Origin: Psychrobacter fulvigenes
Lineage (GTDB): Bacteria > Pseudomonadota > Gammaproteobacteria > Pseudomonadales > Moraxellaceae
Assembly: GCF_904846155.1 (NCBI RefSeq)
Contig: NZ_CAJGZP010000001.1
Location: 1,364,001 to 1,428,000 of the forward strand
Reading direction: 5' to 3'
Length of the DNA: 64,000 nucleotides
Part shown: one piece after another, positions 6,363 to 34,688 of the stretch
How positions within the stretch are numbered: the first letter of the stretch is position 1
How the letters are laid out: each line of letters starts with the position of its first letter
Notes under the pieces: model-generated
Seen by the model: only the letters and a program-made list of their open reading frames with translations
What the model was told of the DNA's origin: nothing
The model's database searches: none
Program-made: the position numbers and the translations under genes

Positions 6363-8012
6363 ATGGATCATGTAAAAGTTGAAAGATTAGGCCCATTTCC
6401 AAGGGTGAATAAACCTGTCTTTATTACATCAGGTATTTTAATCGTCGGCTTCATTATATCTGGTGCGTTCTTCACTGAGACCGCTGGCGCCCCGTTTAGT
6501 TTTTTACAGAGCTTTATTACCACAAACTTCGGTTGGCTATTCATTATTTTGATGAACGTGGCGCTGGTGTTTTGTATTTACCTAGCAGCGAGCCGCTACG
6601 GTGATATTCGTTTGGGCAGACAAACAGAAGAGCCGTAATACCCCTTATTCTCGTGGATTGCGATGCTGTTTTCAGCGGGTATCGGTATTGGGCTAGCGTA
6701 CTGGGGAACAGCAGAGCCGCTATATCACTTTATGGCACCGCCACTTGGTGAGCCAGAAACGGTAGAAGCTGCCAAGCAGGCGATGAACCTCTCGTTTTTA
6801 CACTGGGGTTTACATGCTTGGGCTATTTATACCATCGTTGCTTTGTCTCTAGCTTATTTTCATTTTCGCCGCGGACTGCCGTTATCGATTCGCTCAACGC
6901 TATATCCTATCTTGGGTCAAAGGATTTATGGTCGTTGGGGACATACCGTCGATATCTTAGCAGTATTCGGTACTATGTTCGGTGTCGTGACTTCCTTGGG
7001 TCTTGGCGTGATGCAGATTAACTCTGGTCTTGAAGAGCTATTTGGCATACCAAACACCATCATTATGCAGTTCATCATCATTGCTTTTGTGACGGCATTG
7101 GCTTGTGGCTCGCTGATGTTAGGTCTTGATAAAGGTATCAAGCGTTTAAGCGATATTAATATGGCTTTCACCGGTGTGCTGTTGGCATTTATGGTGATTT
7201 TAGGTCCGACACTCTTCATTTTTGATAGTTTCATTGAAAACATCGGTAACTATCTGACAGCGGTCGTTCCATTGGGTTTTTGGGGTGAGGCTTATAGCAA
7301 TACCGATTGGCAGGGCGCATGGACGATTTTCTACTGGGCATGGTGGGTTAGTTGGGCACCATTCGTCGGGGTATTTATCGCTCGTATTAGCCGTGGCCGT
7401 ACCATTCGTGAGTTTGTATTAGGTGTATTGTTAATACCAATGACCATTTTGTTTTTCTGGTTTACGACTTTTGGCGGCGTGGCCATTCATATGGAGTTGC
7501 TGGCAGCCATTAATCCTGAACTGGTTAGCCCAGGATTGGTTGAAGCGGTACAAGCAGATACAGGTAGTGCCATCTTTAAGTTGGTCGAATACTACCCACT
7601 CACCAAGCCTATTACGTTTTTGATCGTTATCATGATTGTACTTTGGTTTGTGACCTCGTCTGACTCGGCCAGTTTTGTTATCGATATGCTGACCGCTGGT
7701 GGTGATACCAATCCACCAAAAATCCAACGTCTGTTTTGGGCGATCATGCAAGGTCTGATAGCTGCCATATTGTTAGCCGCAGGTGGTTTGGGCGCTCTAC
7801 AAGCCGCAGCGATTGTTGCTGGGCTACCGTTTGCTATTGTGGTTTTTGTCATGATGTATGCATTACTGCGTGGTCTTAGTCGCGATCGTCTCATTTTATA
7901 TCGTAATCAGCTGCGCTTCATTACTGATGAGTCGGCAGAGCACAACTCGGCTGATGAATTCGTCGATGAGCACTTGCTAAAAGGTCCACCCAAGATTGTG
8001 GATGGCGATTAA
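6363..8012 (+). pseudogene. BCCT transporter copy 1, interrupted by in-frame TAA
   Basis: The frame from ATG 6363 to the stop ending at 8012 would encode a 549-residue betaine/choline/carnitine transporter. TAA at 6636-6638 stops it at codon 92, and it continues intact for 449 more codons. The intact copy has Gln at the matching place (TETPQYS versus TEEP-stop-YPL), so one C-to-T change at a CAA codon explains the lesion. Everything else is preserved: GIGIGLAYWGTAEP, the Trp-rich FYWAWWVSW segment, ISRGRTIREF, and VTSSDSASFVIDM. Family members are 12-TM carriers that import compatible solutes with Na+ or H+. The second piece has no good start of its own. Either a recent pseudogene or a gene needing stop readthrough. 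Confidence 0.85.
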
Positions 8013-8184: not shown

Positions 8185-9813
8185 ATGAGTGAACTCAAAA
8201 TAGGTCGTTTAGGGCCTTTTCCACGAGTGAATAAACCTGTGTTTATTGCCTCAGCGGTATTGATTGTAGGGTTTATTATTTTTGGTGCCCTATTTCAAGA
8301 ACTGGCAGATACTATATTTACGAGTGCGCAGAGTTTTATTACCCAACGATTTGGTTGGATGTTTGTCATTTTGATGAACGTTGCCGTGTTTCTCTGTTTG
8401 TATTTAATCTTTAGTAAATACGGTGATATCCGTTTAGGTCACCAAACCGAGACACCGCAGTACAGTCTGCCATCTTGGATTGGCATGCTATTCTCAGCTG
8501 GTATCGGTATTGGTATCATGTACTGGGGTACTGCTGAGCCTGTCTATCACTTTATGGCACCGCCACTGGGTGATGCAGAGACGGTAGAAGCTGCCAAACA
8601 AGCGATGAATATCTCATTTTTACATTATGGTATACACGCTTGGGCGATATATGCTGTCGTAGCGTTATCATTGGCCTATTTTCATTTCCGCCGCGGACTG
8701 CCGCTGTCGATTCGTTCTAGCTTATATCCGATATTGGGTCAGAAGATCTATGGCAAGTGGGGCCATACCGTCGATACGCTCGCAGTATTTGGTACCATGT
8801 TCGGTGTGGTAACGACGTTAGGTTTTGGAGTATTACAGATCAACTCTGGACTAGAGGGCCTGTTTGGCCTGCCTAATAATGTGACCATGCAGGTTATTTT
8901 GATCGCATTGATTACGATGCTGGCTTGTGGCTCATTATTAATGGGTTTGGATAAAGGCATCAAACGTCTCAGTGATACCAACATCATTTTGACATTTGTA
9001 TTGTTAGGATTTGCCTTTATCATGGGTCCTACTCAGTACATTATGGATAGCTTGGTCGAAAATACTGGTAACTATTTACAAAACCTTGTGCAGTTAGGCT
9101 TTTGGAGTGAAGCTTATAGTAAAGGTGATTGGCAGTCTTCATGGACGATATTCTACTGGGCATGGTGGATCAGCTGGTCGCCATTTGTAGGGGTGTTTAT
9201 CGCTCGTATCTCTCGTGGTCGTACGATTCGTGAGTTCTTATTGGGCGTGCTATTCATTCCTATGATTATCTTGTTCTTCTGGTTCACAACCTTTGGTGGT
9301 GTGGCAGTAAACATGGAGTTGATCGGCAATCCTGGATTTATTGAAGTCGTACAAAACGATTATGGTAGTGCTATCTTTAAGTTGATGGAGTTTTATCCAT
9401 TGACCAAAGCGACTACCATGCTGATTGTTATCATGATTGTATTATGGTTTGTCACCTCATCGGACTCAGCCAGCTTTGTCATTGACATGCTGACCTCTGG
9501 TGGTGAAACCAATCCGCCTAAGATTCAGCGTTTGTTTTGGGCGATTATGCAAGGTCTTGTGGCGGCGATTTTATTGGCGGCGGGTGGCTTAGGTGCGCTA
9601 CAAGCAGCAGCCATTGTCGCTGGATTTCCTTTCGCGATTGTGCTCTTCATCATGTTGTATGCGATGCTGCGAGGGTTTAGCCGCGATGAGTTGATACTCT
9701 ATCGTGCAGAGCAGCGCTTTATCACTGATGAATCAGTTGAGCACAATACGGCCAACGAATTCGTCGATGAGGAGTTGCTTGAAGGACCACCTGAGGTTGC
9801 TAAAGGTGACTAA
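8185..9813 (+). CDS. BCCT-family compatible-solute transporter (intact copy 2)
   Basis: A 542-residue carrier of the betaine/choline/carnitine transporter family, the only uninterrupted one of three tandem paralogues. About 12 membrane segments are visible. Landmarks: GPFPRVNKPVF at the start, GIGIGIMYWGTAEP (Gly-rich TM3 region), the aromatic FYWAWWISWSPFVG of the substrate cage, RISRGRTIREF, and SSDSASFVIDMLTSGG. Family members import glycine betaine, choline, ectoine or carnitine in symport with Na+ or H+ at the inner membrane for osmoprotection. Which substrate is used cannot be read here. The C-terminus is short, ending soon after the last TM with an acidic stretch. ATG 8185 follows GGATAAG. 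Confidence 0.93.
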   Translation: MSELKIGRLGPFPRVNKPVFIASAVLIVGFIIFGALFQELADTIFTSAQSFITQRFGWMFVILMNVAVFLCLYLIFSKYGDIRLGHQTETPQYSLPSWIGMLFSAGIGIGIMYWGTAEPVYHFMAPPLGDAETVEAAKQAMNISFLHYGIHAWAIYAVVALSLAYFHFRRGLPLSIRSSLYPILGQKIYGKWGHTVDTLAVFGTMFGVVTTLGFGVLQINSGLEGLFGLPNNVTMQVILIALITMLACGSLLMGLDKGIKRLSDTNIILTFVLLGFAFIMGPTQYIMDSLVENTGNYLQNLVQLGFWSEAYSKGDWQSSWTIFYWAWWISWSPFVGVFIARISRGRTIREFLLGVLFIPMIILFFWFTTFGGVAVNMELIGNPGFIEVVQNDYGSAIFKLMEFYPLTKATTMLIVIMIVLWFVTSSDSASFVIDMLTSGGETNPPKIQRLFWAIMQGLVAAILLAAGGLGALQAAAIVAGFPFAIVLFIMLYAMLRGFSRDELILYRAEQRFITDESVEHNTANEFVDEELLEGPPEVAKGD

Positions 9814-10060: not shown

Positions 10061-11715
10061 ATGGACCATGTAAAAGTTGGCAGAGTAGGACCTTTTCCGC
10101 GAGTGAGTAAACCTGTATTTTTAACCTCGGTAATCTTAATTACCCTGTTTATTATTTTGGTGCATTCTTTAACCAACAAGCAGAAATAGTATTTAATCAA
10201 GCAAAAGCATTTGTCTCTTTGCGTTTTGGTTGGTTCTTTATTGTGGTGATTAATGCCACTGTATTGATGAGTATCTATATGATATTTAGTCGATATGGCG
10301 ATATTCGGCTGGGTCATCAGAATGAGAAACCTGAAAATAAGCTCATCTCTTGGATTGGTATGCTGTTCTCAGCGGGTATCGGTATCGGACTCTTATACTG
10401 GGGTACGGCTGAGCCGCTATATCACTATATGGCACCGCCTCTAGGTGAAGGGGAAACGGTCGCCTCTGCTAAGCTTGCGATGAATATCTCGTTTTTGCAT
10501 TATGGTGTTCATGTGTGGGCGCTCTACGGCATGGTTGCGTTAGCGTTGGCTTATTTTCATTATCGCCGCGGTTTGCCATTGGCCATCCGCTCAACGCTAT
10601 ATCCAATACTGGGCAAAAAAATCTATGGTGGCTGGGGACATACGGTTGATACCTTAGCGGTATTCGGTACGATGTTTGGGGTAGTGACCACCTTGGGTCT
10701 TGGAGTTTTGCAGATTAACTCTGGCCTTGAGAGCTTATTTGGTATTCCTAACAACATCAGTGTACAAATCATCTTAATTGCCGTTATTACGGTACTTGCA
10801 GGGATGTCACTGTTCTTAGGGCTGGATAAAGGTATTAAGCGCTTAAGCGATATCAATATCTTTTTGACTATTATACTATTGAGTTTCGTTATCCTCTTGG
10901 GGCCTACGCAGTTTATTTTTAATAGTTTTATTGAAAATATCGGTAATTATTTACACCAAGTCATTCCACTAGGTTTCTGGACGGAGTCTTATGAAGGTCA
11001 AGAAAACTGGCAGTCTTCGTGGACGATTTTCTATTGGGCATGGTGGATTAGTTGGTCGCCGTTCGTTGGTGTATTCGTGGCTCGTATCTCTCGTGGTCGT
11101 ACCATTCGTGAGTTCACATTGGGCGTGTTATTAATCCCTGTGGCGATATTGTTCTTGTGGTTCACCGCTTTCGGTGGTTCTGCGGTACATATGGAGCTGA
11201 TGGCTGCAGTCAATCCTGACATAGCAAGCCCTGGTCTTGTCGAGGCTGTTAGAGCAGATACTGGCAGTGCCATCTTCAAACTAATGGAATCTTACCCGTT
11301 AACATCAGTATTTAACCTACTCATTGTTATCATGATTGTGCTGTGGTTTGTGACTTCATCGGACTCTGCCAGCTTTGTGATTGATATGCTGACCTCAGGC
11401 GGTGATACCGATCCTCCAAAAGTTCAGCGCTTGTTTTGGGCAGGGACTGAGGGCGTCATCGCGGCAGTGCTATTGGCGGCTGGTGGCTTAGGGGCGTTGC
11501 AAGCAGCTTCTATCGTATCAGGTCTGCCATTTGCAGTGGTGATATTGGTGATGATGTATTCATTATTACGCGGTTTGAGTCGCGATCATCTAATTCTCTA
11601 TCGTCAGCAGCAGTGGTTTATCACTGAGGAGTCAGCAGAGCACAATTCAGCAAATGAGTTCCCTGATGAAGATTTACTGAAAGGTCCGCCAGCAGTCAAA
11701 GAAACAGGTGAGTAA
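10061..11715 (+). pseudogene. BCCT transporter copy 3, broken by a one-base deletion
   Basis: Translation from ATG 10061 gives MDHVKVGRVGPFPRVSK, matching copy 1. After about 32 codons it leaves the family frame and stops at TAG 10187-10189. The rest, including the NQQAEIVF stretch, GIGIGLLYWGTAEP, FYWAWWISWSPF and SSDSASFVIDM, lies in the next frame and runs open to 11715. The shift falls at the T run 10155-10158: four T here, five in copy 2 at the same place. One missing T accounts for everything. The restored protein would be about 551 residues. The downstream frame has no ribosome site near a start that would give a whole carrier. A sequencing error is also possible. Confidence 0.82.
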
Positions 11716-29756: not shown

Positions 29757-30539
29757 AAGTCCCGTCCTTAATTATCAATCAGCTTCGAGATCCTTGTCAT
29801 CGTTTCCTGTCTAAAAACATTGTTGATACTAGGTTTGATATCACGATGAACGGTGCATTTCTCTATCTAAAAAACCATCAAATATAGTCTGATCAGGTGT
29901 AAGAATCTAGCCAATAACCATATCTAAAAGAGTGTGTCTAATTTTATACTACCAAATATCGTATGTTATTTACTTTAAATATTATAGGTTTTTGAGGAAA
30001 TACCAGCTAAATGGTTGTTTCGTAGGGTCAGCTATATCTTTAGCGAAGATATTTTTTTGTCTTATAAGTCAGGTGGTTAGATCGTTTTTAGTGTTTGCAT
30101 AGATAACAAGTAGCAGCGAGATTGTAGTAGAGCATGTGATGCGGTCAAGTTAAAGGATAAAAAACCTAATAATCAAAAGCTTGCTGCTCAATATCAAGGT
30201 GATAGTCATAAAGCCCTCTAAAAAAATGATTGCTAACCAGTAGAAATCCAAGACAAAAGGTAATTTATCTATATAAATTAACCAAACATGTGTTTATTGT
30301 CTCTATATTTTTAGTCGTAGCACATTATCATCAATTTGGCTTGCGACATATTTAGTAGATGGTCTATGTTGGTGTTATGGCCGCTGATAATAGTAAAGCA
30401 GATGATTTGATTGGTTAAATGTTAAGTCTACTGTTTGTTGATACTTGTTATAGGAAACCAACTGAAGTTTTGCTGTGAGCAGTTTTCGTACTCAAGTATT
30501 TTAAATCTGGATATGTTAATTCTCAAAGGAGTTGAGACC
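29757..30539. other. Gene-free region between the AraC regulator and the large unknown gene
   Basis: About 780 AT-rich bases with no supported frame, tRNA or repeat that I could match elsewhere in the window. It should contain the promoters of both flanking genes. Confidence 0.5.
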
Positions 30540-33500
30540 ATGACTACTAAAAAAACAGGTTCTAAAGCTACTGACACTAGCAAGCAAAAAAAGCAAACTT
30601 CCTCCCAAAACATCTCAGACGTCTCAAAGGCGCAGACATCTGTAGAAGCTCAAAGCGGTGCTACCATTAAGACGCAAATCGATGATTTTAAGCACGGCTT
30701 TCATATGGCCGAAGAGTAACTGCTCAGGCTACAATCTGAAATAGCAAAAGATACGAGTAGTGATTCAGCTCAGATCAAGTCATTAAAAGTGAAGGCTGAT
30801 GCGGCACAAAAGCTTATTTCTGATCTAAAGGATAAAGTCGCTGCCGCCCCTGAAATTGCGCAAAACTTGGGCGTAGGTATTGAGCGTCCAACGATCATCG
30901 AAAAAGAATTCCACAACGTGGTTAGAGAAACTGAGCTTAATCTTAACGATGTGGTTTTGGAGACGCCAAAGGTTATAGCGCAGCAGCGTATGACTGGCAT
31001 TGGGCCACGTGATGCCAAGCTGTTCGCAGACAACACCATGACACCGATCCAGATGATTGGCAAATTGCGCCTCTAGTTTGATGGTGAAGATGGACGACCA
31101 GCACCCAATGCTACTTATGCCTTGCAGGCGACGCGAAAAGACTCAGATGAAAAGATACAACTGCGCAGTGGTAAGACAGACTCTAGAGGGTATACCTCAG
31201 TTAATTTGTCTAATATTGAGCTTGATAGTATCGAAAAAATCGATGTCATCATCCATGACGCTTCGCTAGACAAAACCAATCCACATATCTATACCTTGTC
31301 TAAAGATAGAATCTTGGATGGATTATTGTTAGCAGTTCCTCATATTATCCCTGTTCCAAAAACATTGGTCGAAAAGCTACATGATTGGATGGACAATCAT
31401 GACAGCACTGAGACACCAGGAACCATAGAAGATCCCGATGATATTGACTTGAGTATCTCGCCAGCATCTTTTGGTCTCAATGAAGAGCATATCGATGGAA
31501 ACTGCTGTTTGCGGCCAAGGACTGAGTTTCCTGCCAAAGAGTACTACTTTCGCCAAACGGTGCGCCTGACTGATATTGAAGATGTGCGCTTGGTATTTAA
31601 CGGTGAAAAGGAAAAAGAGCGCACGGGTGTGGCATCACCTATTGATTATGGTGATGACTCTGCGAGTACCTATGCAGTACTAGGCGGCAACTTGCTCATA
31701 GGTCTGTCTAATCTGTATCGCCACGGTTGGTATCCTGCTGGGCGCGGCTTGGGACGACTGTTATACTCGACGTCACTAGCACCTTGCGAAGATATCAATC
31801 TAGCCTTTATTGATTGGACACGTAGTGAGCGCGATACTCGTTCTGAGTCGCGAACACAAACTGAGCAAATGGAGCATGATCTACAGCATGATCGCAGTAT
31901 CGATGAAGTGGTGGACTTGGTATTGCGTGAGAACCAAGAGGGTAGCTCAGCTGCTGGCGGCGGCGGAGCAAGCTTAGATCTTGGGTTCTTTAGTATTGGC
32001 GGCGGGGGGGGTGGTACCTCCAGCTCATCGACAGGGCGGCGCTCTTTGCACACTTCAACGGTGCAAAATATATCCGATAGTGTGTCGCAAAGTGCGTCGG
32101 CTATCCGGCATCAGCGCTCTACCGTTGTCACAACCTCCTATCAGCGAGAGTCTGAACGTATTCAGACGCGTACAGTACATAATCACAATATGAATCACGT
32201 GATGAACTTGCAGTACTTTCAGGTGGTAGAGCACTACTCTGTAAAGACCGAGCTGGTTGAGGAAAAACCTGTATTGATGGTGCCCTACGCGGTCGATCAG
32301 GCTATATTTGGAACAATTGCCAGTTTTGATAAGTTCGTCAACTCGCCCTCTAGTGCCATTACTCGTTTTCTTGATCGGCATTCAAGACTGTTACGAAGAA
32401 TGGTGCCGCGCAGCTATAGAAGTGCCTTTCAATCGCTCTCAAGACTGTTGCATTGCAAAGATGTCTATAGTATCGAAGAGCCTTATGCGACTTTTTCGCG
32501 TTGGGATATTACTCTAGGGTCAGCATGGCGGCTTGGGGTTAGCCTGCGTATCAAAACCAAATCAGGACAAACGCTGCGCTTAAGCCCTCGCGGTCACACC
32601 TCCAATCAGCCTCCAAGTTACTTTGTCTCCTCACCTGTTAGACATGATGATATCAGTGAGTTTATCGTCTCCTTTGATAGTGCCGAGGCGCTACGTAATA
32701 TCAACGCTATAGACTTAGGTTTTTTTAGCATTAATGAAACCGCCTTTGGAGATGCGATTAAGTTCAAGCTTGACCGTATCGAAGTCTATGCTACGACCGA
32801 TCGCTCGCGCTATATTAGCAATCCGCAATCCTTTGTGATTGAAACCAATGCTGTTGATGTCACGCTGGATGCTAGCAATCCTTCGGTAAACATCGGTATC
32901 GTTGCCAATCCTCCCGTTGACTTTAGCAGCTATCGGGGCCGCGAGCATAGAGACTATTGCCGCTTGCAGGAGCTGATCGCTCACATCCAAGGGCAGCCTA
33001 TGCGCTATATGCGAGCAATCTGGCTACGCGAGGACTCAGATCGTCGCGCTATCCGATTTGATCAATTCAAAATAGGCGACAAATCACTGCTCGATCATAT
33101 CGTCAATAAGCCCATCGGTATTTTGGGTAATTATGTCGCCTTTGAGGTGCTCGAAGGCCATCGCATCGCTGCGGTCAGGAGCCCTGACTACGTGGTATCT
33201 AGCCGTGTTGTTACTATTCCGACTAGAGGTGTATTTGGTGAGGTGTTCTTATCGTGCTGTAATGCTACAGAAAAACGCGATGTCGAGCGCTTCGTTGAAC
33301 CTGAGAACCGCTGTCAGCGTACCGCGCCTGACATCACCGGCGTCTCACCTGGTAGCCGCGCATCACGCAGCGATACCACACCGACCAGCTTTGCTGCGCC
33401 GATCGTCAACATGCAGGCAGCTCCAGCAGTACCTGACTCCTCGGGTATGGCAAACGCTTTGTCAGTAATGGGAACGCCTGATATATTCCGCGATCTGACC

Positions 33501-34688
33501 AATGGCGCTGAGCTGTTATCCTTTATCAATAACGCAACCAAAGAGGCGTTTACGAGCACTCGTCAGCACCGCGCTGCTATGGATGCTATCGCAGGAGATG
33601 TAGTGCGCGGCTTGGTCTCAGCCTATACAGGTGTGCCAATATCTAGTAGTGATTCAGCTGCGCCTGCGGACGCTAAGACCGATGGCGTCACCAAATCGAC
33701 CAATACCAAAAGCGGCACCAAAGCCAGTACCACGGCGCCTACCTCAGCGAAGATCAATAACCCAGGTCTGCAAGCGGCATCGAGTGAGATGGTCAGACAG
33801 ACATCACCTTCCAAGCTGGTCGATCAGTTGCAAGTGATCAAAAAGGCGGTTGATTCGGATCTATTAACCCAAGCAGAAGGAAGTAGACGTACCGCGCAAC
33901 TACTGGGTGAGATTGACGATCAAAACGTCATTATCCCAGCGTCAAATATCTCTTATGGTGTTGTGGCTGAGCCGTTAGGGACAGCGTCACGCGAGGTCGA
34001 TATCAAGCTGCGTGTCTTTATACCCGCGCCAGTGGTGACTACTGGCATACCATTGACCAGTGCCTATGCTGGCGATGATCGTAGCTTTTCGTACAGTGAT
34101 GGTACCTCAAGAGCTGAGATTCATGCCAAGCTTACGTTTGGGACGGATCATGCTTGGCCACAATTGCAAATAGATCAGATCGAATTTGGTGCCACTCATG
34201 CCTACGATCAGGACGATACCTCAGATGTGGCTGGCAAGCCAAGCTGGTGGAACTCGATCAATAGTGGTGCAAGCCCAACAGACTCTGGAACGCTGACCAG
34301 AACTGCGGACAACTTAAATGCGGTACAGTCCTATACTTATGCGCCTACTGCCGAGAGCTATTGGCCAGATGGACCTATCGCCGCCTTGGTGTATCTCAAA
34401 GTCAACGCACCCAATCCACTAGAGTCTCTAGCCCCTGCGATAGACGCCAATCTGTATCTGTATGTCAAACAGTATAATGGCAAGCTCTATTACAAGCTAT
34501 CAGGCGATCACGACGGGTTCCCAGCGTTTGAACTGTACGTGGATGAGTGCCGAGTATTCTCGCATGATCCTGCTGCCGAAAACCAAAGCCCAGCGTCATT
34601 ATTGCCACCATCGGAATACAGAGTCGGCGAAACAGGCATCACCAGTGGTTGGAGTATGTTACCGTGTGACATAACTACACAAGTTTAA
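30540..34688 (+). pseudogene. Very large protein of unknown function, frame broken by TAA and TAG
   Basis: One reading frame of 1,382 codons runs from ATG 30540 (AAAGGAG 8 bases upstream) to 34688, interrupted only by TAA at 30717 and TAG at 31074. Both sit where a Gln would fit (MAEE-stop-LLRLQSE; GKLRL-stop-FDGEDG). Layout: Lys/Thr-rich start; helical region; a beta-sandwich-like segment with GKTDSRGYTSVNLS; Gly-rich loops (GGGGGG) near residue 485; a helix with many Ser/Gln/Arg; NHNMNHVMNLQYFQVVEHY, a motif I have seen in large uncharacterised bacterial proteins; a hydrophilic Ala/Thr/Lys linker near 1060; and a C-terminal beta-rich domain. No signal peptide or TM. Function unknown. The last piece alone is 1,188 codons with no good start. 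Confidence 0.8.

Follow-up and report, generated by a model that had tools for sequence, protein, structure and literature searches.

Two long reading frames in a 64,000-nucleotide stretch of the Psychrobacter fulvigenes genome (C1:1364001-1428000, hereafter the window; the genome measures 3.47 Mb in 5 contigs) are interrupted by three in-frame stops, each at an apparent glutamine codon. Are these stops read as glutamine, are they artefacts or traces of DNA damage, or have the two genes been lost by ordinary mutation? Several claims of the original prediction were confirmed. The stops are real, TAA at 6636 being the sole internal stop of a frame of 549 codons, and TAA at 30717 and TAG at 31074 the sole internal stops of a frame of 1382 codons. 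Glutamine occupies all three sites in the intact, ~99% identical proteins P0050 (549 aa) and P0001 (1382 aa), and neither frame shows an indel against its counterpart, in agreement with the claimed absence of frameshifts. Because of the ~99% identity, P0050 and P0001 are probably alleles of the same species. Since intact proteins of the same length and near-identical sequence have glutamine at each site, we consider that both genes are, very probably, recent strain-level nonsense pseudogenes.

The shorter frame is the first of three tandem genes of the BCCT transporter family (PF02028), the features of which are as follows (positions in the window).

6363..8012, plus strand: BCCT transporter gene copy 1, with one nonsense codon; PF02028 matches on both sides of the stop, and intact 549-aa relatives exist
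6636..6638, plus strand: in-frame TAA at a glutamine position of copy 1; glutamine in P0050, in all 117 of the other relatives with 549 aa and at 29 of 29 genus loci
8185..9813, plus strand: BCCT copy 2, with an intact frame for 542 aa; every column that is invariant in 11 relatives is unchanged here
10062..11715, plus strand: BCCT copy 3, frameshifted near 10150-10165; the N-terminal part (ATG at 10062) and the remainder lie in different frames

The TAA interrupts copy 1 at residue 92 of 549, within the PF02028 match, and cuts the domain near its start. Relatives of copies 1 and 2 with a named source come mostly from Psychrobacter. The count of 117 refers to the best 120 of 8000 scored proteins, P0050 being counted separately, the window's own 449-aa fragment set aside and one 486-aa protein left out. 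In a comparison set of 60 genomes of the genus, the piece behind the stop found a match in 58, and 30 loci were fetched; when the window's own was omitted, the codon was CAA in 11 and CAG in 18 of the remaining 29. The truncated 449-aa product (P0049) is present on two contigs, one of which belongs to this genome; the second may be the same genome stored twice, or another strain with the stop.

Copy 1 differs from P0050 at 7 places including the stop, and 5 of these changes were assigned to the window lineage (the stop, F33S, L44P, V112A and G268A), 1 to that of P0050, while 1 was undecided. Four of the five window-lineage changes, i.e. the stop and three missense changes, affect residues on which the 12 nearest relatives all agree, and P0050 has no such change. 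The three missense changes at invariant columns in copy 1, with none in P0050 or copy 2, argue for the pseudogene reading.

Like other members of the family, copy 2 matches PF02028 over its whole length without interruption, and it is the only intact gene of the three; copy 1 is interrupted and copy 3 is frameshifted, its match starting at profile position 13. The residue at the site of the copy 1 stop is glutamine (CAG) in copy 2 and glutamate in copy 3. The frameshift of copy 3, in the same tandem cluster, had gone unmentioned in the original prediction. Elsewhere in the genome, the domain is free of stops in three BCCT genes (L003, L005 and L006), and a further one is broken by a frame change (C1:850293-851590, L084:10293-11590). 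This last gene was dropped as evidence on glutamine stops since its TGA lies behind the frame change. Taken with the frameshift in copy 3, it indicates that BCCT decay in this strain takes several forms beyond glutamine codons, which again supports the loss of copy 1 as a pseudogene.

The second frame belongs to a large accessory gene with the following features.

30526..30531, plus strand: AAGGAG, resembling a ribosome-binding site (identified by eye), 8 bases upstream of the ATG
30540..34688, plus strand: large accessory gene with two nonsense codons; intact 1382-aa relative P0001; found in 1 of 60 genus genomes
30717..30719, plus strand: in-frame TAA at a glutamine position, residue 60; glutamine in P0001 and P0002
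31074..31076, plus strand: in-frame TAG at a glutamine position, residue 179; glutamine in P0001, P0002, P0003, P0005 and P0025
34705..34735, plus strand: terminator-like hairpin of 14 pairs directly after the gene, from a hairpin scan that gave 6 in total where shuffled sequence gave 4.5, no more than expected by chance

For search, alignment and folding the gene was used as the piece behind the stops, or it was compared with the stops kept. Both stops lie ahead of the most conserved part of the 1382-residue product. The piece behind them matched only this strain's own genome among the 60, and this patchy presence argues for a pseudogene as well. Its neighbours, an AraC-type regulator on one side and a flavin-monooxygenase-like gene on the other, are encoded on the opposite strand. 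Comparison of codons in other Psychrobacter had been proposed as a check. Glutamine was uniform at the BCCT site, in all 29 loci, but residue 60 of the large gene is glutamine only in P0001 and P0002 among 15 aligned relatives, the 13 more distant ones having other residues; residue 179 is glutamine in 5 of the 15.

The only Pfam match of the large gene was a weak one to DUF3238 (PF11579). Its relatives form a family of ~1400-aa proteins (P0001-P0048) that share a conserved core but differ in their C-terminal domains, patchily distributed in marine Gammaproteobacteria; the named sources are Marinobacter, Alcanivorax, Amphritea and Kangiella, plus three further Gammaproteobacteria. Identity to P0001 in the core ranged from 41 to 90% among the 15 aligned relatives. 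The window gene shares this core, which carries no curated family name; a PHROG search gave no match for the family, and NCBIfam gave none for P0001, P0012 and P0022. The window gene ends in a DUF3238-like region, whereas many relatives end in DUF4056, PF05708, PF00691 or other Pfam domains.

The 14 differences between the large gene and P0001, both stops included, were divided with P0002 as outgroup into 7 of the window lineage (both stops, M263L, S460L, A788V, P967S and G1038D), 6 of the P0001 lineage and 1 undecided. Where the 14 other rows all agree, P967S marks the one column at which only the window deviates, and there is none at which only P0001 does. Apart from the stops there thus appears to be little sign of relaxed constraint, and this lack of excess change (7 against 6, with P967S alone private) would speak against the pseudogene reading.

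A second point against that reading is that all three stops stand at glutamine codons. With the codon usage of this genome and a transition bias of 4-6, C-to-T changes at glutamine codons should make up 31-45% of new nonsense mutations, so that three out of three would be expected by chance in 3-9% of cases under this realistic bias, in 0.9-2.5% at a bias of 2 and in 0.2-0.7% with none. The all-glutamine pattern is mild and was chosen post hoc. By the smallest step, the 12 window-lineage changes of both genes comprised 6 C-to-T, 1 G-to-A, 3 T-to-C, 1 A-to-T and 1 G-to-C, a spectrum derived from the proteins of the near-identical relatives. This spectrum seems to fit AT-biased ordinary mutation and not pure deamination. 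PMC2936535 describes bacterial mutation as dominated by C/G-to-T/A transitions, a further reason to read the stops as those of ordinary pseudogenes.

The original prediction had offered recent loss by cytosine deamination, for example after long dormancy. A genome-wide burst of C-to-T changes, caused by damage, dormancy or a mutator, would account for three C-to-T stops out of three and for the share of GC-to-AT transitions, which is 7 of 12 overall and 6 of 7 in the large gene by the smallest step; copy 1, in contrast, carries three T-to-C changes and one G-to-C besides its stop. Such a burst should also have left its mark elsewhere, and the genome was therefore scanned for in-frame stops by codon-pair scores, which replaced earlier single-codon scores of insufficient sensitivity. 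The sample comprised the window and 40 stretches of 20 kb from this genome, together with 20 stretches of 20 kb from each of three relatives (G040, G028 and G004). Stops placed in silico were recovered in 180 of 200 cases here (tested on the first 20 of the 40 stretches), and in 177, 180 and 174 of 200 in G040, G028 and G004, respectively; slightly stricter settings recovered 250 of 300. Of the three real stops in the window the scanner picked up those at 6636 and 31074 but not the one at 30717, and it also marked one gene end (57382).

The 800 kb beyond the window yielded 13 flags. In 9 of them a start codon lies no more than 5 codons from the stop, and these presumably mark neighbouring genes. 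The remaining 4 in 800 kb (L086:4336, L097:13274, L096:5692 and L215:6246) compare with 6, 2 and 3 per 400 kb in G040, G028 and G004, and only one was confirmed as nonsense. This TAA (L086:4336, C1:1194336) interrupts an outer-membrane-protein-like gene, which we take to be FadL-like, where 19 fetched genus loci have Tyr, Lys, Asn or Glu, and never glutamine. L097:13274 and L203:492 were rejected as nonsense, being natural ends at which an orthologue also ends, and L107:9889 of G040 was likewise a natural end. In another stretch of G040, fetched for its BCCT genes, a nonsense TAA (L110:4734) stands where the related window gene at 1179-1706 has glutamine, an event of the same kind in a relative.

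A homology count gave a similar picture. Its queries were open frames of at least 150 codons from the other sampled genomes, uncurated and with spurious frames included. Of 163 gene places here, 7 scored as broken, 6 by a stop and 1 by a frameshift; the corresponding figures were 8 of 117 in G040, 6 of 101 in G028 and 8 of 107 in G004. Neither count shows an excess of broken genes in this genome over the three relatives. Dormancy damage is unsupported, because it predicted many C-to-T nonsense changes genome-wide and the sample holds none of that excess; the count of such changes proposed earlier yielded, in the 800 kb outside the window, the single confirmed nonsense codon at a site never glutamine in relatives. 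Recent loss is supported as ordinary mutation, and a burst of any origin is very unlikely. The two stop-bearing frames in 64 kb do exceed the sampled rate, which counts against the pseudogene reading, though these frames are the reason why the window and the finding were chosen.

That a suppressor or near-cognate tRNA reads UAA and UAG as glutamine, so that both proteins are made, had also been proposed, and the occurrence of both TAA and TAG at glutamine positions with the frames open behind them is what it would predict. The decoding apparatus does not bear this out. The Rfam tRNA model found 49 tRNA loci in the assembly; ARAGORN read 47 of these, all with sense anticodons and none with CUA or UUA, the other two being degenerate. 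The tRNA-Gln has a UUG anticodon and a normal anticodon stem of five pairs. The idea that a four-pair anticodon stem lets tRNA-Gln misread stops was taken from PMC13092985, and it was rejected here in view of the five pairs. Two PF03462 release-factor genes, presumably RF1 and RF2, are both open.

No stop was retained in any relative examined (all have glutamine, in 29 of 29 BCCT loci, 118 of 118 BCCT proteins, P0001 and P0002), whereas programmed readthrough would call for stops conserved among orthologues. Nor are in-frame TAA or TAG common genome-wide, as the four candidates and one confirmed case in the 800 kb attest. Reassignment of stops to glutamine was rejected on the lack of a CUA or UUA tRNA and the rarity of in-frame stops in the sample. 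A change of code had already been ruled out in the original prediction, and rightly so, since other genes end normally (TAA 176, TAG 105 and TGA 59 in open frames of at least 150 codons of the first sample). Suppression and near-cognate readthrough are thus extremely unlikely. Two further elements were seen in the tRNA search: a tRNA fragment with a CAU-like anticodon loop, 30.9 bits and no acceptor stem (L170:123-179, C1:1974372-1974428), and a tRNA-like element with 34 bits to RF00005 and a long hairpin insert in its anticodon loop (L169:101-197, C1:1023800-1023896), for which ARAGORN made no call and which is present in 1 of 60 genus genomes, its own.

Base-calling or assembly errors would mean that the strain truly has glutamine codons and that the stops are artefactual. 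Glutamine at all sites in near-identical public proteins would be expected under such errors, and the frameshift of copy 3 sits in a short T run, the usual place for a sequencing indel. Against this, the contexts of the stops share no common motif by eye, the three relatives have stops and frameshifts at least as often, copy 1 carries private missense changes of several types besides its stop whereas copy 2 is free of them, and the truncated P0049 was recovered on two contigs, which may be one genome stored twice. Sequencing error, also raised in the original prediction, is thus the less likely explanation of the stops, and we regard it as improbable.

Under the preferred reading, ordinary point mutation, most simply C-to-T at glutamine codons, would have placed one stop in the first of three tandem BCCT genes and two in an accessory gene absent from most of the genus, and both genes would have lost their function. 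The losses may be tolerable since an intact BCCT copy adjoins and the large gene is presumably dispensable. The case resembles known bacterial nonsense pseudogenes: the stops are private, they affect a native gene that has been duplicated and an accessory gene of patchy occurrence, both genes have intact alleles elsewhere, near-identical homologues show no stop at the sites, and a conserved, needed part is cut off. It differs only in the coincidence of three stops at glutamine codons. A review (PMC11078800) names two routes to pseudogenes, disruption of native genes and failed or unneeded horizontally acquired genes. A literature search on Psychrobacter pseudogenes returned nothing on point, and we make no claim of absence from print. 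It is highly improbable that readthrough or internal restart, at a low level and depending on conditions, still yields some product, so that the stop alleles act as a tunable down-switch and coexist with intact alleles in one population.

Near-identical intact alleles, an ordinary set of tRNAs and release factors and a flat sampled rate together point to common gene loss, a phenomenon already known, and not to a new reading of the genetic code. In-frame stops at glutamine sites in clean frames can mimic recoding, and a false lead is thereby removed. The family of the large gene, in which a core is conserved and the ends are exchangeable, deserves more attention than the stops themselves.
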